Source of the DNA: Clostridiales bacterium
GTDB lineage: Bacteria > Bacillota > Clostridia > Peptostreptococcales > T1SED10-28
Direction of reading: 5' to 3'
NCBI GenBank assembly: GCA_007134725.1
Contig: SLKF01000190.1
Location: 1 to 10,479 of the forward strand
Length of the DNA: 10,479 bases
Each line of letters starts with the position of its first letter. The stretch's first letter is position 1. Made by a program: the position numbers and the translations under genes. The notes under the pieces are model-generated. The model was not told where the DNA came from and ran no database searches. It was given only the letters and a program-made list of their open reading frames with translations. Of this stretch, positions 1 through 10,306 are shown piece after piece.

Positions 1-50
1 ATCCGAATGTTTTTTATCTGAATGTTTTTTATCTGAAGCTTTTTTATCCG
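1..50 (-). repeat. 15-bp tandem repeat, three full units, coding
   Basis: Units at 1-15, 16-30 and 31-45 follow ATC(C/T)GAATGTTTTTT with few changes, and a partial unit starts at 46. On the minus strand each codes for a five-residue SDKK(H/A) block, so the array is in frame with the N-terminus of the probable rlmB. It runs off the window edge, so the copy number is unknown. Confidence 0.85.
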
Positions 51-156
51 GCATACTTTGGTACTTCTTTTCCTCCGGTTTGCTGGCCCGCTTATCAAAC
101 TTAGTATATTTCTTCACCGGGTTGTTTCTTTTCACATTTTTATTTTTCTTCATCAT
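1..156 (-). CDS. rlmB: N-terminal 52 codons of a probable 23S rRNA methyltransferase (RlmB/TrmH family), cut by the window edge
   Basis: Only the start of this gene is visible. It opens MMKKNKNVKRNNPVKK and stays open to the window edge as a Lys-rich, low-complexity, surely disordered segment ending in repeats of about SDKKH. No catalytic SPOUT domain is in view, so the identity rests on position: in Firmicutes, rlmB follows mrnC (or mrnC-thyX in Clostridia). RlmB 2'-O-methylates G2251 of 23S rRNA, and related proteins can carry basic N-terminal tails. The start is chosen from GAGGTG at 160-165 just upstream; the second ATG at 153 is equally possible. It lies 49 bp after thyX with no promoter or terminator seen between them, so the two are probably co-transcribed. 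The coding status is fairly secure, the name much less so. Confidence 0.55.
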   Translation of the reverse strand, partial: MMKKNKNVKRNNPVKKYTKFDKRASKPEEKKYQSMPDKKASDKKHSDKKHSD

Positions 157-205
157 CTACACCTCAACATTTCTTAGTTTTTCATTCTCTAACGGTTTCT
201 ATCCA

Positions 206-982
206 CTATGATAATTTTGAAAATCGATTGCGCACGGCAACTATTTCGCCACAGGTCATCGTTCCTTCCGGACAGGGATTATCCAAGCACTTGGGTCCGC
301 CCTTGTCAAATACCGTAGGCGCAATATTTTTGACCTGTCGTAACATTTCGATGGCAAGTTCCTGAATTTCCCACTGGGCTCGGTTACAGCATCGATGATT
401 AAAGAAATGGAGCAATGCCCGGGCATTCATGGTGACGATGATTTTTGTTTCACAGGCATTGGGAAGAACAAAACGAGCATCTTCAATGGCTTTCTTCTTC
501 GCGGTTTTCTTAGCATTTTTTTCCGTTTCACCTTTATCCATGTATTCTTTTATATAATCCATGTATAACTCTTCCGTAATTTCCTCGTAATATTTCCCGC
601 TTTTCTCCATGGCTTCCAGATATTTTGCTTTCGCTTTTGGTCTTTTTTCAATTTCCGGAGGGATGATATACTGAAAATCTTTTTCTTCAACGTACCGTTG
701 ACTTTTCTGAGAGTAGCTGGCCCCGATACGGTGTCTCACCAATTGATGGGTTAAACTTCTTGAAACCCCTTCGATGCCGAAGGTAAATGAAATGTGTTCC
801 AAAGGAGACTCGTGCCCCATATCTACAAGCATCTGGACAAACTTCCGATTTTTCTCAGCATCGGATTGTTCCATGGTTCCCTCGATCCCTTTTGGAGAAT
901 AACAAAGTTTTGCGGCTCCGGCGATCACTTTTTCCGGATCCGGGGTATGGGTAATCAGGTGGACCTTCAATCGACTTTGCAT
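206..982 (-). CDS. thyX: Flavin-dependent thymidylate synthase ThyX
   Basis: ThyX makes dTMP from dUMP with methylene-tetrahydrofolate, FAD and NADPH, replacing ThyA chemistry. Seen: ESPLEH (58-63), the ThyX signature RHRIGASYSQKSQRY (83-97), RCCNRAQWEI (197-206), and a Cys-rich C-terminus with CPEGTMTCG (C232, C237, C244). Length 258 aa is normal for the clostridial branch. The signature carries one residue more than the usual RHR-X7-S spacing (RHR-X8-S; see findings). A charged Lys-rich segment at 147-167 separates the two halves of the fold. The start ATG directly abuts the mrnC stop (TAAATG), and its GAGGAGG Shine-Dalgarno lies inside the acidic last codons of mrnC, so the two are translationally linked. 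Confidence 0.95.
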   Translation of the reverse strand: MQSRLKVHLITHTPDPEKVIAGAAKLCYSPKGIEGTMEQSDAEKNRKFVQMLVDMGHESPLEHISFTFGIEGVSRSLTHQLVRHRIGASYSQKSQRYVEEKDFQYIIPPEIEKRPKAKAKYLEAMEKSGKYYEEITEELYMDYIKEYMDKGETEKNAKKTAKKKAIEDARFVLPNACETKIIVTMNARALLHFFNHRCCNRAQWEIQELAIEMLRQVKNIAPTVFDKGGPKCLDNPCPEGTMTCGEIVAVRNRFSKLS

Positions 983-1411
983 TTACTTTTCCTCCTCTTC
1001 AATAATTTCAACCGCTCTTTTCATCACTTCCATCAATCGTTGGTAGCGTTTCATACAAAACAGGAAGCCAATCAAGGCTTCAAAACCCGTTGCGTATCGA
1101 TAATCTCCGACATCGGAATTTTTGGGAACGGTTTTGGATTTTTGATTTCGTCCTTTTTTTACGATTGACCACTCTTCTGTCGTTAATTCTTCTTCCAATC
1201 TTAACACAATATCCGCTTGGGCTTTCGCTCTCACGTAAGTGATCGCTTTTTTATGAAGCTTGTCCACAGATAACTGAGGATTCTCAGTAAGCATTTTTCG
1301 AATGTATACTTCATAAACAGCATCTCCAATGTAAGCGAGGGCTAAAGGTGAAGTGATCTTCATATTTAGTTCTGATTTATTTTCATTGAATTGCTCTAAG
1401 AATTCTTCCAT
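983..1411 (-). CDS. mrnC: Mini-ribonuclease III (MrnC), 23S rRNA maturation
   Basis: Mini-III is an RNase III catalytic domain without the dsRNA-binding domain; in B. subtilis it trims 23S rRNA precursor ends. Seen: ALAYIGDAVYE (24-34; D30 in the first catalytic motif), the VKKGRN segment (84-89), PKNSDVGDYRYATG (96-109) and ATGFEALIG (107-115; E111 catalytic). The 142 aa length is typical. Position directly after cysS matches B. subtilis. It has a TAGGAG ribosome binding site at 1416-1421 four bases before the ATG. The C-terminal EEEEK codons double as the thyX ribosome binding site. Confidence 0.95.
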   Translation of the reverse strand: MEEFLEQFNENKSELNMKITSPLALAYIGDAVYEVYIRKMLTENPQLSVDKLHKKAITYVRAKAQADIVLRLEEELTTEEWSIVKKGRNQKSKTVPKNSDVGDYRYATGFEALIGFLFCMKRYQRLMEVMKRAVEIIEEEEK

Positions 1412-1436
1412 AAATCTCCTACCTTTCTTGTATCAC

Positions 1437-1465
1437 ATTATATTTCAAAAATAAGAAAAACACAA
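1437..1465 (-). promoter_or_regulatory. Possible sigma-A promoter for mrnC-thyX-rlmB
   Basis: In the 117-bp gap after cysS there is a perfect -10 TATAAT (1437-1442) with a weak -35 TTGTGT (1460-1465) at 17-bp spacing. The long gap compared with the tight mrnC-thyX junction supports a fresh start here. No convincing terminator for cysS is seen in the gap. Confidence 0.45.
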
Positions 1466-1528
1466 CGTCTCGGTAGGCTGAACCTCTACAGAAAGTGGTG
1501 TTATTCTTATAACCTGATTTTTACATCC

Positions 1529-2926
1529 TTACGAAATTCTTCTCCATTGCACCCCTTGAGGCGTATCCATTAACTCAATTCCCATTTCTTGAAGTTGGTC
1601 TCGTATTTCATCGCTCCGTTTATAATTTTTCGCTTTTCTCGCCTGCTGTCTTTCCTCAATCAAGGCTTCAATTTCCTCTTCTAAAACCTCTTCCTGCTTT
1701 TCTAAAAGACCCAGTACATTGGTCAGCTTCTTTAATAGTAGGATTCCCTGATGAATGATCGCCTTCGATGTGCTTTCGTCAATATTGGTATTCAGATCTT
1801 TGACCAGATCAAAAATCACGGAAATTCCATCGGCGGTGTTGAAGTCATCATCCATTTTTTCAACAAACCGTTCTTCATAGGCCAACAGTCTTTTCTCCAT
1901 TTTTCTTTCTTCTTCTGTGAGCGCTTTATCCGCAGCGATTTTCAATAAATGATCTAAGTGTTCCTTGCTGTGATACAGACGATCCAAGCCGCTTTTCGAA
2001 GATACCAGTAAGGCTTTATTAAAATTCAAGGGGTTTCGATAATGGGCGGAAAGCATGAAAAAACGCAGCACTTCCAGATCAAACTCTTTTCGAATATCCC
2101 GAACCGTAAAGAAATTCCCAAGAGATTTGGACATTTTTTCATTGTTCACATTCAAATAGCCTACATGAAGCCAGTAGTTTGCAAAGGGTTTCCCCGTGGC
2201 GGCTTCACTTTGAGCCACTTCATTTTCATGATGGGGAAATACCAAATCGCCTCCACCCCCATGAATATCGATGGTCTCTCCTAAATATTTCTTCGCCATG
2301 GCGGAGCATTCAATATGCCATCCCGGTCGACCTTTCCCCCAGGGACTGTCCCAGCTGGGTTCTCCCGGTTTAGAGGATTTCCATAATACGAAGTCCAACG
2401 GGCTCTTCTTCCGCTCATCCACTTCCACTCTGGAGCCCAGCTGTAAATCTTCCAGGTTCTGTTTTGATAACTTCCCGTAGTCTTCATAACTGTCCACATC
2501 AAAATAAACATCGCCTTCCATTTCATAGGCATGTCCTTTTTTTTCCAAAACACGAATAATGTCAATGATCTCCGAAATGTTTTCCGTTACCTTGGGATGA
2601 ACATCGGCTCTTTCAATGCCTAAGCTTTCCGCGTCCAGGAAGTACTCTTTTATAAATTTCTCACTAATCGCCTCGGCGCTTACCCCTTGGTCCTTGGCCT
2701 TGTTGATAATCTTATCATCGATATCCGTAAAGTTTTGGACAAAGTGCACGTGATAACCGCGGTACTGGAAGTATCTACGCATGGCATCAAATACCATAAA
2801 AGTTCTCGCATTTCCTATATGGAATAAATCGTAGACTGTAGGGCCACAGGCATACATTTTAATTTCTCCCGAGACAACCGGGCGAAAATCCTCTTTTTGC
2901 TTGGTAAGGGTATTGTATAGTTTCAT
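1529..2926 (-). CDS. cysS: Cysteinyl-tRNA synthetase
   Basis: Class I synthetase that charges tRNA-Cys, cytoplasmic and Zn-dependent. Seen (numbering from the ATG at 2926): C27 in [10 protein letters not shown], the HIGH-type motif HIGN at 36-39, GWHIEC with C207, FPHHENE with H232 and E236 (C27, C207, H232 and E236 match the known Zn ligands), KMSKS at 264-268, then the DALR-type helical C-terminal region. At 465 aa it is the normal length. A TTG codon immediately upstream (2927-2929) could also start translation, but the ATG gives the usual MKLYNTL start and better spacing (8 nt) to GGCGGG. It lies 65 bp after gltX with no terminator and so is probably in the proS-gltX-cysS transcript. Confidence 0.97.
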
Positions 2927-2991
2927 CAAGATTTCCCGCCTTTCATCCTTTGGTGTTACTAAGAAGTACTAATCCTATATTTTCAACATTT

Positions 2992-4470
2992 TCACTTCTT
3001 CAATTGTTCCTGTACAAATGCGATTCGTTTCAATAATTTCTCCCGCCCTAAAACTTTCATTACCAGTTTAAGGTCCGGACCTTGAACATCTCCTGTCACC
3101 GCAACTCTTGCAGGTTTGAAAAGCTTTGGTCCTTTCGCCCCCACCTCTTTTTTAAGATCCTTAAATACTTGCTTACTGAAGGCTTCATCAATCACCTCAG
3201 CAATTTTTACCTTTTCATAAAACGCCTCCAAGAGCTCTTCAATATGGTCATCAGACAAAATCTCTCTGCCCTCGGGACTTATTTCGATCTCCTCTTTGAA
3301 AAACATCGCTGCTTTTTCCGGCACCTGGGCCAAATAATCCAAATACTCTTTTAGGACTTCCATTAGATCCTCCACCCAGTGAATTTCTCTTTCACCTTGT
3401 CCCGGCTGCAAGTATCCAACTTCTTCTAAATAGGGAATTGCCAGTTTTGCCAAGCGATGATTATCCGCTTCTTTGATGTAATGGTTATTCACCCAATTAA
3501 GTTTCTCCACATCAAAAACTCCGCCGCTTTTGGAAACCCGCTTCAGGTCAAATTTTTCCTGTAATTCTTCCATCGTAAATATTTCCTGATTATCCTCCGG
3601 ACTCCACCCGACCAAGGCTATATAGTTTACCAAGGCCTCGGGTAAATAGCCTTTCTTTTGAAAGTCCTCCACAGCTACATCCCCTTGACGCTTGCTGAGT
3701 TTTTTCTTGTCACTATTTAAAATGTTGGGTAAATGAACATATTTCGGAATATCCCAACCAAAGGATTTATACAGATGGATATGTTTTGGTGTGGAGGTTA
3801 CCCATTCTTCTCCTCGAATAATATGGGTGATTCCCATTAAATAATCATCTACCACCACGGCAAAATGATAGGTAGGGAATCCATCGGATTTTATAAGCAC
3901 TTGATCATCAATATCGCTGGTATGAAAAGACATTTTTCCCCGGACCATGTCTTCGAAGACAATCTCCTCATTTTCCGGAAGTTTCAATCGAATCACATAT
4001 GCTTCCCCTTTTTTGATCTTCTCCGCTACTTCCTCATGAGAAAGCCCCTTACAATGGCCGTCATATTTTGGGGTTTCCCCTCGACTTTTTTGGTCTTCTC
4101 TTACCTTTTCAATTCTTTCTTTCGAACAGAAACAATGATAGGCATCCTCCTGATGAAGGAGTTGTTTAATATGCTTTTGATAAATTTCCAACCTTCTGGA
4201 CTGCATGTAGGGACCGAAGTCTCCTTCTTCGATTAATATGCCCTCTTCCAGTTGAAAACCCTCATCATGATTGACCCCTGCCCAATTCAAGGATTCAATC
4301 ATGCCTTCAATGGCACCTTCTACATATCGGGCACGATCCGTATCTTCAATTCGAAGAATATATTTTCCCTCGTTTTTTTTGGCAAATAAATAGTTGTATA
4401 GGGCGGTTCTTAAACTTCCAATATGCACAAACCCTGTTGGACTCGGGGCAAATCTTACTCTTACGGACAT
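2992..4470 (-). CDS. gltX: Glutamyl-tRNA synthetase
   Basis: Class I synthetase that charges tRNA-Glu; in organisms lacking GlnRS it also mischarges tRNA-Gln for the GatCAB amidotransferase. Seen: [20 protein letters not shown] with HIGS at 16-19, IEDTDRAR (41-48), a partial Cys zinc-knuckle (C113, C115, C140), [18 protein letters not shown] (206-223), KLSKR at 257-261, and a long helical anticodon-binding C-terminus. At 492 aa it is the normal bacterial length. A strong AGGAGG lies 7 nt before the ATG. Discriminating and non-discriminating forms cannot be separated by eye. It follows proS after only 39 bp. Confidence 0.97.
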
Positions 4471-4509
4471 TTATATTCCTCCTTTATGGCTTTCCGATGT
4501 TTTTTTTCC

Positions 4510-5952
4510 TTAATAGGATTTGGCGAAATAAGTCAATACTTTTCCTTCTCTTCCACAGAAGGGACAATCTCCGCCTAGATCTTCCTGCTCAAAGGGTACG
4601 CAGCGCATGGTAGCACCGGTTTCTTGTTTAATGTTTTCTTCACATTCCGGATCTTCGCACCAATTGGCTTTTACAAAACCTTGGGTCGTATTCATGATTT
4701 CTTTCAATTCCTCTATGCTCTTGGCGTAATAGGTATTCTCATCCCGCATTTTCTTTGCTTTCTCAAATAGATTATGGTTAATCTCTTTTAAAAGCACAGG
4801 GATATGAGCCGTAAGTTCATCGATGGCTACGGGAGTTTTTTCCAAGGTATCCCGTCGTACAAGCATCACCTGATTATTTTCAATATCTCTAGGACCAATT
4901 TCAATTCGAATCGGTGCCCCTTTCATTTCCCATTCATTAAACTTCCAACCGGGAGAGTAGTTTTCCCGATCATCCAACTCTACACGGGCAATATCTTTCA
5001 GTTGGTGAAAGAGTTCTGAAGCTTTCTCCAGTACCCCTTCTTTATGGGTAGCAATCGGTACGATGGCCACTTGCGTCGGAGCGACTCCGGGAGGTAGTAC
5101 CAGTCCCCGGTTATCTCCATGAACCATGATGATTCCTCCGATCAGTCTTGTGGAGATTCCCCAGGAGGTATGGTAAGGATACTCTTGTTTTCCTTCTCGG
5201 CTTAAGAAATTAATATCAAAGGCCTTGGTAAAATGTTGGGCTAAGTTATGAGAGGTTCCTGCCTGCAGGGCTTTTCCGTCATGCATTAAGGCTTCCATGG
5301 TGTAAGTGGCATGGGCACCGGCAAACTTCTCTTTTTCACTTTTTCTTCCTATAATGACGGGCATGGCCAATAATTCTTCTGCGGTTTCTTTATAAATATT
5401 CAGCATTTGCAGGGTTTCAGCCTGGGCTTCTTCTTCTGTTTCATGCAGCGTATGGCCTTCCTGCCATAAAAATTCCGAGGTTCTTAAGAAAGGTCGGGTG
5501 GATTTTTCCCACCGTACCACATTGCACCATTGATTATACAAAAACGGAAGATCCCGATAAGAGTTCAACCATCTTGAGTACATTTCGCATATGATGGTTT
5601 CTGAAGTCGGTCGAATCGCCAGTCTTTCCGCCAGCTCTTCATCGCCACCGTGGGTTACCCAGGCAACTTCCGGAGCAAAGCCTTTTACATGCTCTGCTTC
5701 TTTCATTAATAAGCTTTCGGGAATCAATAAAGGAAAGTAGCAGTTTTTATGTCCCGTATCTTTGAAGCGCTTATCTACATAAGCCTGGATATTTTCCCAA
5801 ATAGCATAGCCATAAGGTTTAATAGCCATAAAACCTTTTACCGGGGAGTAGTCCACCATATCGGTTTTCTTAATAACATCCGTATACCATTGTGCAAAAT
5901 CCTGCTCCATTGGAGTGATTTCTTCTACAAATTCTTTTTTCTTTTTTCCCAT
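4510..5952 (-). CDS. proS: Prolyl-tRNA synthetase, archaeal/eukaryal-type (ProS type 3)
   Basis: Class II synthetase that charges tRNA-Pro. It is the compact form without the ~180-aa editing insertion of the E. coli type. Seen (numbering from the ATG at 5952): [15 protein letters not shown] (12-26), [19 protein letters not shown] (35-53), RPTSET (114-119), the motif 2 region [21 protein letters not shown] (147-167), the motif 3 region [19 protein letters not shown] (265-283), and a C-terminal Zn-type site with C432, C437, C451, C463 and C466 ending KSY. The 480-aa length suits the family. An upstream ATG at 5967 gives 485 aa but has no ribosome binding site; the ATG at 5952 has GGAG nine bases before it and gives the typical [14 protein letters not shown] start. 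A terminator hairpin sits about 40 bp before the start (see that entry). Confidence 0.96.
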
Positions 5953-5961
5953 TTTTTCACG

Positions 5962-5965
5962 CTCC
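5962..5965 (-). promoter_or_regulatory. Ribosome binding site that decides the proS start
   Basis: GGAG at 5962-5965 lies nine bases before the ATG at 5950-5952. The alternative upstream ATG at 5965-5967 is preceded only by an A-rich stretch, with no purine-rich GG core. The shorter protein is therefore preferred. Confidence 0.6.
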
Positions 5966-5990
5966 ATTATTTTTTTTTCATCTATTGATT

Positions 5991-6026
5991 AAAAAGCACT
6001 CATCCCTAACCGATAGAGATGAGCGC
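5991..6026 (-). terminator. Strong intrinsic terminator in the proS leader
   Basis: On the minus strand the 13-base arm GCGCTCATCTCTA (6014-6026) pairs with TAGGGATGAGTGC (5996-6008) around a TCGGT loop, with two G-U wobbles, followed by TTTTT (5991-5995). It lies after ispF but also after the proS promoter and about 40 bp before the proS start. It could simply end ispD-ispF transcripts, or act as an attenuator for proS. No T-box antiterminator sequence (TGGNACCGCG type) precedes it. Confidence 0.85.
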
Positions 6027-6046
6027 TGTACGATGCGTTAAAGCCC

Positions 6047-6075
6047 ATTCTATCCCATTGCGTCCACTCAGTCAA
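6047..6075 (-). promoter_or_regulatory. Sigma-A-type promoter for proS-gltX-cysS
   Basis: -35 TTGACT (6070-6075) and -10 TAGAAT (6047-6052) are separated by 17 bp; each hexamer matches consensus at five of six positions. The start point would be near 6038-6040, giving an ~88-nt leader that contains the terminator hairpin almost at its 5' end. Confidence 0.7.
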
Positions 6076-6080
6076 GTTCC

Positions 6081-6569
6081 CTATTCCCACTGTTTTTCGA
6101 TGTTTTTTATGCTTGCAATCGCCATAGAGGCAATCCCTTCTTTTCTTCCTTCAAAGCCTAAGCCTTCCGTGGTTGTGGCTTTTATATTGATTTGCCCTTC
6201 CGTGACGCCTAAAGCCTCGGCGATGTTGGTACACATCCCGTTGATATAGGGTGCCATTTTGGGTTTTTCCGCAATAATGGTTCCATCGATATTATTGATT
6301 TCATAGCCTTCTTCACGTAATAACTGACCTACATGGTTTAATAATTTTATGCTGCTTGCTCCTTTATATTTGGCATCCGTATCAGGAAAGTGTTTCCCGA
6401 TATCCCCTAAGGCCGCAGCGCCAAGCAAAGCATCTTTGATCGCATGCAATAAAACATCCGCATCGGAATGCCCCAAGAGTCCTTGCTCGTAAGGAATTGT
6501 AACGCCTCCGATAATCAACGGTCTTCCCTGTTGGAATTTATGAACATCATAGCCCATTCCTACTCTCAT
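6081..6569 (-). CDS. ispF: 2-C-methyl-D-erythritol 2,4-cyclodiphosphate synthase IspF
   Basis: Fifth step of the MEP isoprenoid pathway: it cyclises CDP-methylerythritol 2-phosphate with loss of CMP. Works as a trimer with Zn. Seen: [12 protein letters not shown] with metal ligands D8 and H10, [13 protein letters not shown] with H34, D38 and ligand H42, [10 protein letters not shown] (56-65), and [12 protein letters not shown] (131-142). At 162 aa it is the normal length. AAGGA lies 9 nt before the ATG. IspD, the third step, is upstream in the same direction but separated by an unusual 306-bp gap. Confidence 0.97.
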
Positions 6570-6650
6570 AGTATTACGTCCTTTCTTTGTATTCTTTCAC
6601 TGTGTTTGATGAAGTACGTATAGGAGAATGAATCATGTCTAAGTTTAATA

Positions 6651-6752
6651 TTACCTTAATCGAAGATCATTTGCACGGATTTTTGCAAACAAATCTCTCT
6701 TCATGTGAAAAAATCTTACAGTAACCCTTTCACAATAATCTTGCTGTTTCGC
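6651..6752 (-). other. In-frame open continuation after a UAG codon, downstream part of the ispD-ispF gap ORF
   Basis: Directly after the UAG at 6753-6755 the same frame stays open for 33 codons to a TAA at 6651-6653. It starts AKQQDYCERVTVRFF and ends basic (ANDLRLR). The composition looks protein-like, but no start with a ribosome binding site lies inside it, so it would be translated only by reading through UAG. It may be the remnant C-terminus of a decayed gene. A 6-bp inverted repeat TTTGCA/TGCAAA (6670-6675 and 6684-6689) lies within it. The remaining 81 bases to ispF (6570-6650) hold only the ispF ribosome binding site. Confidence 0.25.
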
Positions 6753-6863
6753 CTATGGTTTCCCATTTTCTAAAGCTTTATCGATCACTTCTTGAATTAT
6801 TGGACTGCAGCATTTCCCGGTTGAAGCCCCTCAACAATTCTTATTTGATTGATTTTTCAACAT
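6753..6863 (-). CDS. Candidate small selenoprotein (36 aa with in-frame UGA) or remnant of a small gene
   Basis: Starting two bases-groups after the ispD stop, an ATG at 6861-6863 is placed 7 nt from a GGGGG ribosome binding site. The frame reads MLKNQSNKNC, then UGA (6831-6833), then GASTGKCCSPIIQEV and an amphipathic helix-like end (VIDKALENGKP) before UAG at 6753-6755. A UGA right after a Cys codon, with a CC pair eight codons on, is the arrangement seen in redox selenoproteins. Two hairpins are possible near the UGA: GGGCT (6825-6829) with AGTCC (6802-6806) just downstream, and GTTGAG/TTCAAC (6830-6835 with 6820-6825) enclosing the UGA; neither is a strong bacterial SECIS. Read as a stop, UGA leaves a 10-aa peptide. 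I recognise no family. Decay of a longer gene is the main alternative, since the frame continues past the UAG. Confidence 0.3.
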
Positions 6864-6870
6864 GTTCATA

Positions 6871-6877
6871 CCCCCTT
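6871..6877 (-). promoter_or_regulatory. Ribosome binding site for the ispD-ispF gap ORF
   Basis: AAGGGGG overlaps the ispD stop codon and stands 7 nt before the ATG at 6861-6863. It is too close to the first ATG (6867-6869) for that one to be favoured. Its presence is the main sign that something after ispD is, or was, translated. Confidence 0.5.
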
Positions 6878-7595
6878 ACCGATTGGTCTTTCGTCTTTTC
6901 AAAATCGCCTGTCCAATTTCTAAGTCTTCCGGTGTTGTGATTTTAATGTTCTCATAGCTTCCCCGAATCATTTTCACCCTGCCACCTAAGGCTTCCACAA
7001 GCATGGCATCATCGGTAACGGATAAATTCTCAATTTCTCTTTTTTGATGAGCCTGGAGTATGATCTCTTTTTTAAAGGTTTGAGGGGTTTGAACAAGCCA
7101 AAGATTTTCCCGTTTCGGTGTATCTTTCACAAATCCTTCTTCATTGATGATTTTGATCGTATCCTTAACCGGCATCCCTACGATGGAACAACCATAAGCA
7201 TTGGCCGATGCAATGCTTTCATTTATTATTTCTCCGGTCACAAAGGGTCTTGCCCCGTCATGAATCAGTACCACTTCACAGGCCTTGGATACAGCTTTAA
7301 TACCGTTGTAAACTGAATGGTACCGCTCTTTCCCACCTTCAACAATTATTTTAACCTTTGAAAGGTTGTATTTCTCCACAATATTTTCTCTGCAAAATTC
7401 CACTTCTCCTTCCCCTACTACGATAACAATTTCATCAATTTCGGGGTGGTCTTCAAAATGCTGTAAGGTATGAGCTACAATCGGTTTCCCTTCTAAATGA
7501 ATGTATTGTTTATTATAATTCTGCTCCATTCTTTTCCCTTTCCCCGCCGCAACAATAATGGCACTGACTTTTTGTGTAAATCCTCGGTTTCCCAT
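6876..7595 (-). CDS. ispD: 2-C-methyl-D-erythritol 4-phosphate cytidylyltransferase IspD
   Basis: Third step of the MEP pathway: CTP + methylerythritol 4-phosphate to CDP-methylerythritol. Seen (239 aa): SAIIVAAGKGKRM (11-23, CTP-binding glycine-rich loop), GGKERYHSVYNG (87-98), IHDGARPF (111-118), PVKDTIK (142-148), VTDDAMLVE (193-201), ENIKITTPEDL (215-225). The frame is open for a further 58 codons upstream to 7769, but the ATG at 7593-7595 has a very strong AAGGAGG five bases away, gives the normal family length, and the upstream part crosses an 11-bp repeat array and the yacL terminator. No clear promoter is visible between that terminator and the gene. Confidence 0.96.
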   Translation of the reverse strand: MGNRGFTQKVSAIIVAAGKGKRMEQNYNKQYIHLEGKPIVAHTLQHFEDHPEIDEIVIVVGEGEVEFCRENIVEKYNLSKVKIIVEGGKERYHSVYNGIKAVSKACEVVLIHDGARPFVTGEIINESIASANAYGCSIVGMPVKDTIKIINEEGFVKDTPKRENLWLVQTPQTFKKEIILQAHQKREIENLSVTDDAMLVEALGGRVKMIRGSYENIKITTPEDLEIGQAILKRRKTNR

Positions 7596-7613
7596 GACTT
7601 CCTCCTTCCTTCT

Positions 7614-7668
7614 ACTTTGTTTCTTATTTATTTCGAATTTGTTTCTACTTTGTTTCTGACTTGTTTCT
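7614..7668 (-). repeat. Five 11-bp tandem repeats in the ispD leader
   Basis: Units in exact 11-bp register start at 7614, 7625, 7636, 7647 and 7658. On the minus strand the consensus is AGAAACAAAGT; the unit at 7625 is the most diverged. The period is not a multiple of three, so this is not a protein repeat, and it lies just upstream of the ispD ribosome binding site. An 11-bp period puts each unit on nearly the same face of the DNA helix, so binding sites or an unstructured A-rich leader are both possible. Confidence 0.75.
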
Positions 7669-7727
7669 GTTTCACTACAAAGGTGTTTTCGGTATGTAGA
7701 ACCTCTGATCACAATATGGTTTCTTGG

Positions 7728-7763
7728 AAAAAGGGGCTCTTTATAGTATAAAGAACCCCTTTT
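7728..7763 (-). terminator. Intrinsic terminator of yacL
   Basis: A 16-bp stem (arms 7748-7763 and 7729-7744, one G-U pair, loop of three) has an AAAAGGGG base and is followed on the minus strand by TTTTT overlapping the arm (7728-7732). It starts 11 bp after the yacL stop. Plus-strand use is possible (TTTT) but there is no plus gene to end. Confidence 0.9.
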
Positions 7764-7774
7764 CAACACTGTAC

Positions 7775-8902
7775 TTATGCAGATTTTCCGTGCATTTCTT
7801 TCGGTTTGGCAAAAATCATTCTTCCGGCGGCGGTTTGAAGCACACTGGTAACTAAGACTTCTATGGTCTTTCCGATGTGTTTTCTACCGCTCTCCACAAC
7901 AATCATGGTGCCATCATCAAGGTAGGCGAGTCCTTGCCCCGACTCTTTTCCATCCTTAATAACCTCTACTTCCATTTCTTCCCCGGGAAGAACAACGGGT
8001 TTTACTGCGTTGGCCAATTCATTAATATTAAGAACGGGAACTCCTTGAAATTCAGCTACTTTGTTTAGATTATAGTCATTGGTAATTACTTTTCCTCCCA
8101 ATTGCTGTGCGAGTTTCAAGAGTTTTACATCCACTTCTAAATTTTCTTCATAGGCCTGTTCAAACCCATGATCCAGTATGATTACTTCGATCTTGAGTTC
8201 TTTTTGAATGATGTTTAAAATATCCAGTCCTCTTCTTCCCCGATTACGCTTCAAGGATGCGGAAGAATCCGCCACATGACGAAGCTCTTCGAGAACAAAC
8301 TCCGGAATAATCAATGGTCCTTCCAAAAATTCCGTTTTACAGATATCCGCAATCCGCCCATCAATAATGACGCTGGTATCTAGAATTTTAGGACAGGGCT
8401 TGTAGCTTTCATTTTTTATTTTTTCAATTTCTTTGTCACAGTCTTTTTGACTATCCAACCCTCTAAAAGAATTTAATATGGATAAGTCCTGTCCTCTTTT
8501 GGTCGCTAGGCTTACTCCTAAATATCCCAGGAAAATCGCCACCAGTACCGAAAGAATTGTTCCGATAAAGGGAAAGGGAATATTCATGAGTAATCTACTG
8601 ATAATATAGGCTATAATAAGGCCTACAACAAGTCCAATGGATCCAAAGATAATATCCGAAGTCGGAACTTTTGCCAACTCCCTTTCGATCCAGTTTGCCA
8701 CACCTCTACCGAATGTAATGATTAATGGAGAAATCAAAAAAAATATAAGTCCGCCGATAAATAATGATACCGAATATCCCAAAACCATATACCAGAAGTT
8801 CTCCGTGATATTCTCATAAAATTGGGCTCCGTTGTAAAAAAGCAATACTCCCGATACTCCCCCCAGCAAGGCAAAAATCCACCTTACAATTTTGTTAACC
8901 AT
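7775..8902 (-). CDS. yacL: Membrane-anchored PIN/TRAM-domain protein, YacL family
   Basis: 375 aa. The N-terminus has about four membrane segments (near 5-22, 38-63, 84-103 and 111-133). A linker then leads to a PIN nuclease-like domain (172-295) with acidic residues in place: D175 in KILDTSVIIDGR, E205/E206 in FVLEELRH, D258, and D276 in ITNDYNLNK. A C-terminal TRAM domain (about 304-365) is a predicted RNA-binding fold. The cytoplasmic PIN plus TRAM suggests an RNase tethered to the membrane, but the substrate of this family is not established to my knowledge. The neighbours radA and ispD match yacL in B. subtilis. GGAGGTG lies before the ATG. Confidence 0.93.
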   Translation of the reverse strand: MVNKIVRWIFALLGGVSGVLLFYNGAQFYENITENFWYMVLGYSVSLFIGGLIFFLISPLIITFGRGVANWIERELAKVPTSDIIFGSIGLVVGLIIAYIISRLLMNIPFPFIGTILSVLVAIFLGYLGVSLATKRGQDLSILNSFRGLDSQKDCDKEIEKIKNESYKPCPKILDTSVIIDGRIADICKTEFLEGPLIIPEFVLEELRHVADSSASLKRNRGRRGLDILNIIQKELKIEVIILDHGFEQAYEENLEVDVKLLKLAQQLGGKVITNDYNLNKVAEFQGVPVLNINELANAVKPVVLPGEEMEVEVIKDGKESGQGLAYLDDGTMIVVESGRKHIGKTIEVLVTSVLQTAAGRMIFAKPKEMHGKSA

Positions 8903-9749: not shown

Positions 9750-10148
9750 ATGGACAAAAGTTTTTCTTTAAGTGAATTTCAATCATTAGTCGATGAAGTG
9801 CTGATTCGTCATAAGAGTATTTTGGATATTTTGAGCAAGGTACAGGAAAGCAGCGCAAGAGTAAATCGCGCCGTTGCCAAGGCCAGTACCAGCTGTGGCT
9901 GCATTAACATCTGTGTCGAAAAACCGGAAATCCCCGACGATGTTACCTTTTCCAAACTGAAGTCCTATATGTCGGATCATGTAGAAGGCAAACTTTGCAA
10001 TACCTGCGAAGAAAAAGTTAAACAGGAGATTTCGAACAATTTATTTTATCTCTTTGCACTATGCAATACTTTTGATTTGGATACGGAAAAAATGACCGAG
10101 GATTATTACAAACAATTAAAGCTTCTCGGAAAGTACGGACTGTTATAA
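9750..10148 (+). CDS. Small Cys-rich protein of unknown function, clostridial type
   Basis: 132 aa, no signal peptide or membrane segment. The N-terminal half is a helix (RHKSILDILSKVQESSARVNRAVAKA) leading to TSCGCINIC (C49, C51, C55). The second half has HVEGKLCNTCEEKV (C83, C86), NLFYLFALCNTFDLD (C105) and LLGKYGLL. The paired CGC and CxxC look like a metal or redox site. I recall similar proteins in Clostridia beside radA/carD, sometimes labelled DUF1573 or MazG-like, but cannot confirm a family or function. GAGGGG lies 8 nt before the ATG and the promoter is consensus, so the gene is surely expressed. It is the only plus-strand gene here and converges with radA on a shared terminator. 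Confidence 0.85.
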   Translation: MDKSFSLSEFQSLVDEVLIRHKSILDILSKVQESSARVNRAVAKASTSCGCINICVEKPEIPDDVTFSKLKSYMSDHVEGKLCNTCEEKVKQEISNNLFYLFALCNTFDLDTEKMTEDYYKQLKLLGKYGLL

Positions 10149-10240: not shown

Positions 10241-10306
10241 GGCAATGTCCCCAGCAATGTCTCCGGCAATCTCTCCGGCAATGTCTCCGGCAATCTCTCC
10301 GGCAAG
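10241..10306 (-). repeat. 12-bp tandem repeat, five units plus a half, just after the radA stop
   Basis: Units GGCAAT(G/C)TCTCC start at 10241, 10253, 10265, 10277 and 10289, with a half unit at 10301. The last four alternate G/C at the seventh position, so a 24-bp superunit is visible. On the minus strand each unit would read as LPE(R/T) in the same frame as radA, but behind its stop codon. It lies between radA and the terminator, so it is transcribed as the radA 3' end. Confidence 0.85.

Follow-up and report, generated by a model that had tools for sequence, protein, structure and literature searches.

A short UGA-containing frame between ispD and ispF is probably the remnant of a Csac_0668-type selenoprotein gene

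Results

A 38-codon frame interrupted by one UGA lies behind ispD

The window, by which we mean the whole stretch of 10,479 nucleotides analysed here, carries ispD and ispF on the minus strand. The coding part of ispD (6879..7595), which served as the query and is an open reading frame with relatives elsewhere, gives 239 amino acids from the ATG at 7595, with its stop codon at 6876-6878. The ispF gene (6081..6569) is likewise an open reading frame, with relatives in 57 of 60 genomes, its own included. Between the end of ispD at 6876 and the start of ispF at 6569 there are 306 nt, and reading of the letters reveals a frame there on the minus strand (6753-6869), 38 codons long, interrupted once by UGA (6831-6833) and terminated by TAG. 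It is preceded by AATCGGTAAGGGGGTATGAACATG and its product is MNMLKNQSNKNC-UGA-GASTGKCCSPIIQEVIDKALENGKP. The ispD stop is followed by GGGGG, an ATG and, two codons on, a second ATG, which has the better spacing from the GGGGG. The UGA immediately follows a Cys codon, is codon 13 from the first ATG and codon 11 from the second, and has a Cys-Cys pair at codons 7 and 8 past it.

An earlier note on this DNA had described a frame with UGA behind ispD, with no strand given, placing the UGA at codon 11 directly after Cys and a Cys-Cys pair eight codons away. The frame was confirmed on the minus strand, the codon count is right from the second ATG, and the pair is present, although at the places given above. 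The plus strand at 6753-6869 differs from the frame so described, and Pfam found nothing in plus-strand frames of 29 and 61 aa. The window peptide itself has no Pfam family, with neither zf_CopZ (CPxC) nor a BFD-like 2Fe-2S domain detected. Nothing was found when the window was scanned with Rfam (at gathering scores) and for tRNAs, and a promoter and terminator scan of positions 6500-6960 found none.

Elsewhere the window holds short tandem arrays at 1-48, 7610-7668 and 10241-10305 with periods of 15, 11 and 12, one of which lies immediately 5' of the ispD ATG and would be spanned by the longer ORF listed for ispD. On the plus strand, opposite to the main genes, a 132-aa open frame with SCGC and CNTC motifs occupies 9750-10148; no Pfam family scored above cut-off for it, with a MazG-like match at E 0.065.

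The spacing of ispD and ispF was compared in 51 loci having both genes, three of which are the window itself, with some genomes counted twice. The gap was -40 to 200 nt in 44 of the 48 non-window loci, which agrees with the earlier statement that these genes are normally adjacent and that an inserted unit is unusual; the remaining four gaps were 210, 223, 229 and 1,091 nt, the last of these (L176) being the largest among the loci compared. Within the same genus the insert is absent in G001, G003 and G004. In G002 ispD is close to a contig end and does have an insert behind it; this contig stops ~0.5 kb past ispD, and no match to ispF was found in G002. Just upstream of ispF, three genus members (L013, L014 and L015) have in common GCTTTTGTTTT and, further on, AATCTTTTATAAT (AATCTCTTATAAT in L013), a pair that is possibly the ispF promoter and was not seen in the window.

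The C-terminal half matches the NF045877 family

The earlier note had named no matching family. In a scan of 18,950 models, with C substituted for the UGA, the window peptide matched NCBIfam NF045877, with its C-terminal half covering profile positions 135-161 of 161 only (E 1.5e-4; 21.8 bits, cut-off 190). Across 393 genomes of the order, NF045877 was found in 64 at E <= 1e-5 and above the cut-off in 26, with TGA in ten of the 36 rows above cut-off, one of which also has TAG. The window peptide itself found matches at E <= 0.1 in 33 of these genomes, its own included. Leaving out the self match, 30 of the 42 non-window places, including the 12 best, lie inside NF045877-family genes and 12 lie outside. 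This placing used 44 of the 84 NF045877 rows (the 43 best, to E 1.0e-38, and the second G166 row), and the genomes with the 12 outside places have no place among the rows omitted. No convincing match joined both halves around the UGA at E <= 0.1 in the 392 other genomes; five other rows had TGA at 27-43% identity, two of which were inspected and looked unrelated.

The C-terminal piece of the frame, TGKCCSPIIQEVIDKALENGKP followed by TAG (6753..6821, minus strand), ends in TGKCCSPIIQEVIDKAL, of which 15 of 19 residues are identical to each of TGKCCSPIIQEVINNAL and TGKCCNPIIQEAINKAL, the C-termini of two Sec copies in G130; the search with the window peptide gave E 1.6e-5 in G130. In a full-length G130 copy of 162 residues, Sec occupies position 11 and TGKCC begins at position 144; the corresponding positions in the window are 13 and 17, so that in this comparison ~129 codons (some 387 nt) are gone from the window frame, in frame. 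Pfam detects both zf_CopZ and Fer2_BFD (BFD-like) domains in G130, and these are absent from the window peptide. Together with the family name, these domains suggest that the intact family would function in metal handling or redox, and in the part of the review at hand the Csac_0668 family is listed as copper chaperone CopZ family form 2, with motif CU (PMC13188914).

One Sec-type family gene, L218 (G166:C87:8738-9210), gives two NF045877 rows, 3-137 and 134-160, and its frame departs from the family sequence before the end; it seems to be frameshifted near its C-terminus. At L049 (G005:C35) a short zf_CopZ domain lies within one 330-aa open frame together with LAGGASSRMGENKAL, which we take to be a MobA-like motif, and in L047 (G004) a similar motif comes after the zf_CopZ frame.

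The N-terminal half is shared with a second species of the genus

Directly 3' of ispD, G002 has MNNLKNQAIKNC-UGA-GSSAGSTGPAEEKTGCPVCNIKGKKVSSKTVKHLIKERFV and then a stop. From the RBS to beyond the UGA 49 of 59 nt are identical to the window, and the alignment stops at CCGG. There the G002 frame continues with CPVCNIKGKKV into a zf_CopZ domain (Pfam, E 2.9e-7), and this piece matches NF045877 at positions 4-50 of 161 with 37.6 bits, below the cut-off of 190, before the copy ends after 53 codons. The N-terminal half of the window frame scores 0.4 bits by itself on a family profile built here, and its assignment to the family rests on G002. On this comparison residues M1-S16, MNMLKNQSNKNC-UGA-GAS (6822..6869, minus strand), would be the N-terminal piece of a Csac_0668-type selenoprotein. 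The adjoining ACCGGG (T17-G18; 6816..6821, minus strand) marks the putative deletion junction zone, where homology to G002 stops and homology to the family C-terminal PTGKCC begins; this ACCGGG could come from either flank.

In L098 (G002:C219) a methyltransferase-like frame and then a second piece in another frame lie at 8524-8854, and among the loci compared these pieces have matches in G002 only. The best NCBIfam match of the methyltransferase-like frame had E 1.1e-5 and was far below cut-off. We infer that the second piece is the C-terminal part of the same gene, and if the two belong together it looks as if the middle of this gene had also been deleted. In the window, positions 6680..6699 (minus strand) contain a weak 14-nt exact match to G002, GAGAGATTTGTTTG, whose score was reached in 16 of 2000 shuffles, and this is only a hint that the window retains the RBS and start region of a G002-type methyltransferase-like gene.

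The UGA aligns with a selenocysteine codon and the family hairpin is gone

In the 11 Sec-type family sequences obtained from 12 loci (the sequence pattern used missed L201), TGA directly follows Cys at the homologous place; in a further relative, L046, Thr precedes the UGA. Because family genes carry TGA right after Cys at this place, the UGA of the window most likely descends from a Sec codon. The search of related genomes with the UGA peptide that had been proposed as a check found no convincing short form in the 392 other genomes at E <= 0.1.

In Sec-type members the UGA is followed ~19-22 nt later by the loop of a hairpin, for example UUCUACUG-GUA-CAGUAGAA. We aligned ten of the 11 recovered Sec sequences together with G002, leaving out L220 (spacing one codon shorter, and another stem) and L046 (shorter spacing, weak hairpin). 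In these 11 aligned sequences 93.9% of the 66 cells of a six-pair stem are paired, compared with 25.8-60.6% when the stem is slid, and three pairs are changed on both sides, in six such cells. Of 500 shuffles, none matched or exceeded the paired percentage, the count of cells with both sides changed or the covariation score, but 46 did so for the count of pairs with both sides changed and 430 for that of further pair types, and shared ancestry can inflate such counts. On this alignment, the Csac_0668 family has a covariation-supported candidate SECIS hairpin. When read by hand against the alignment, G002 retains four of the six stem pairs, and its predicted fold is a different, longer one (-12.9 kcal/mol, z -0.96).

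In the window the junction lies upstream of the place of the family hairpin, which is gone, and by hand only two of the six stem pairs would form. No stem of at least four pairs with a loop 12-37 nt past the UGA was found. The best fold has its loop ~14 nt past the UGA, with an inner stem of three pairs and an outer stem of five beyond an internal loop, and reaches -6.0 kcal/mol (z +0.84), with 165 of 200 shuffles folding at least as well. On the stem search and the folding against shuffles, a standard SECIS in the window was rejected. The earlier note had itself called the hairpin downstream unconvincing as a SECIS, which stands, but the downstream hairpin that it took to fit selenocysteine is no more than chance would give. 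The window also falls outside the published bacterial SECIS model (16-37 nt, stem of at least 4 bp, -7.5 kcal/mol or lower), although according to the part of the review at hand some putative elements do so too (PMC13188914). Five of the 11 family Sec sequences likewise miss its energy limit, with -4.3 to -7.3 kcal/mol over 42 nt; L213, one of the 11, takes another fold at this length, and two of three relatives folded singly had z near -1. By folding energy alone, the window cannot be told apart from intact members.

Selenocysteine machinery is present in the genus

Genes for selB, tRNA-Sec and selA score above cut-offs and are clustered in three of the five genomes of the genus (G001, G002 and G004), and GrdA is above cut-off in three of the five, with one internal TGA in G001 and in G002. 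In the window's own genome, G000, a draft 79.87% complete, we found no GrdA and none of selB, tRNA-Sec or selA above cut-off; matches to tRNA-Sec were sub-threshold only, the best at 40.7 bits against a gathering score of 47. When the sel region of G002 (19,001 nt) was compared with G000, positions 1-7,901 matched as three segments of 75-79% identity that all lie on contig C157, with no match in G000 beyond position 7,901. The first base of C157 falls ~0.2 kb short of where the tRNA-Sec gene would be (8,097 in L097), and this syntenic contig ends just before the cluster. As far as can be told, the missing genes fall in an assembly or binning gap, so that their absence from G000 is uninformative and neither refutes nor supports a Sec reading; a lack of sel genes, which had been named as a refutation, was therefore set aside.

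Discussion

We consider it very likely that the frame behind ispD is a pseudogene remnant, made of the two ends of a Csac_0668-type selenoprotein gene from which the middle and the SECIS have been deleted. An ancestor common to the window lineage and G002 would have carried, between ispD and ispF, a gene for a CopZ-like 2Fe-2S selenoprotein of the Csac_0668 family, with zf_CopZ and BFD-like domains; that G000 and G002 share this start, in the same position, is best explained by a single ancestral Sec gene or a single insertion. In the window lineage an in-frame internal deletion of ~129 codons, with CCGG at the junction, would then have fused some 16 codons from the start of the gene to some 22 from its end, the intact protein having ~162 residues. 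Comparison with relatives shows that the two metal-binding domains went with it, as did the hairpin by which SelB would be recruited. With the SECIS hairpin lost the UGA at 6831..6833, aligned to that of G002 and of the Sec-type members, should act as a stop, and most likely now ends translation after 10 or 12 residues, leaving a presumably non-functional remnant that rides in the ispD-ispF unit. On the best reading of the sequences both copies are broken, and differently so, that of the window by internal deletion and that of G002 by loss beyond codon ~50. No full-length parent gene of the window's own lineage was found, and the deletion is therefore deduced from relatives. Two features tell against a remnant, since a peptide still in use would show them too: the reading frame is kept across the deletion, and the C-terminal piece is well preserved and carries no further lesion. 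The earlier reading as a selenoprotein was right in so far as the UGA probably comes from a Sec codon, but what had been taken for a complete small gene joins some 16 residues from the N-terminus of a known protein to some 22 from its C-terminus. A new tiny selenoprotein family was rejected, since both halves belong to one known family.

The same in-frame join, with no other damage, looks fresh, as it would if the organism or a strain mixture possessed the longer selenoprotein gene and the draft had lost ~390 nt at a short repeat. The assembly is in 308 contigs and, as noted, incomplete, and the G002 contig also ends shortly past ispD, so the region may be hard to assemble. Such an artefact is nevertheless unlikely, as the different lesions in the G002 copy at the same locus point to real decay and the window contig extends 6.8 kb and 3.7 kb either side of the join with long open genes, although neither point is decisive. 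We regard it as very unlikely that the deletion left a functional C-U / C-C redox peptide of 36-38 residues that is still translated with Sec, given that both domains and the family SECIS hairpin are lost, the window fold is outside the published model and no convincing second genome among the 393 has the short form. The RBS, start, Cys-UGA, Cys-Cys and stop are nonetheless all intact and in frame, the genus has Sec machinery and GrdA genes with an internal TGA, and in the part of the review at hand some genuine bacterial SECIS elements are said to depart from the model (PMC13188914). That the locus encodes a minimal selenoprotein of this length, in which a CopZ-like protein is reduced to its Cys-Sec and Cys-Cys pairs and Sec is inserted through a non-standard SECIS, is highly improbable. 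An unrelated intergenic frame arising by chance might be suspected from a frame of just 38 codons with no Pfam family, but one half matches the start and the other the end of a single family, with order and reading frame kept, and this contradiction led us to reject it as having next to no likelihood.

If the deletion is real, the remnant represents a bacterial selenoprotein gene caught during its loss and damaged in different ways in two species of the same genus. The case is ordinary, though instructive: a UGA with cysteines on either side, downstream of a good RBS, can mark a fossil instead of a tiny selenoprotein. A by-product of the analysis is the covariation-supported hairpin of the Csac_0668 family. 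The part of PMC13188914 at hand uses none of the words pseudogene, deletion or remnant.

Compared with known systems, the fragment in G002 is like the window in its genomic place and in its nucleotide identity across start and UGA, but keeps the first ~50 codons, has lost the C-terminus and has the methyltransferase-like frame behind it. The related family CopZ_Nterm_CC (NF047645, putative iron-sulfur cluster-binding metallochaperone) gives no match to the window peptide; a full-length G130 protein scores 90.4 bits with it, under its cut-off of 100. The window peptide is not an intact member of NF045877 (CopZ_Nterm_CU, Csac_0668 family 2Fe-2S cluster-binding (seleno)protein), as its low score and the loss of both domains show; by descent, it would belong there through its N-terminal C-U (or CC) motif, with the C-UGA aligned to G002 and to the 11 Sec-type sequences, and through its C-terminal KCC-PIIQ-I end. 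Although it is without the ~129 central codons and the SECIS hairpin, the window resembles this family in the C-UGA start, the TGKCCxPIIQExI end, their order, the frame and the place of the UGA.
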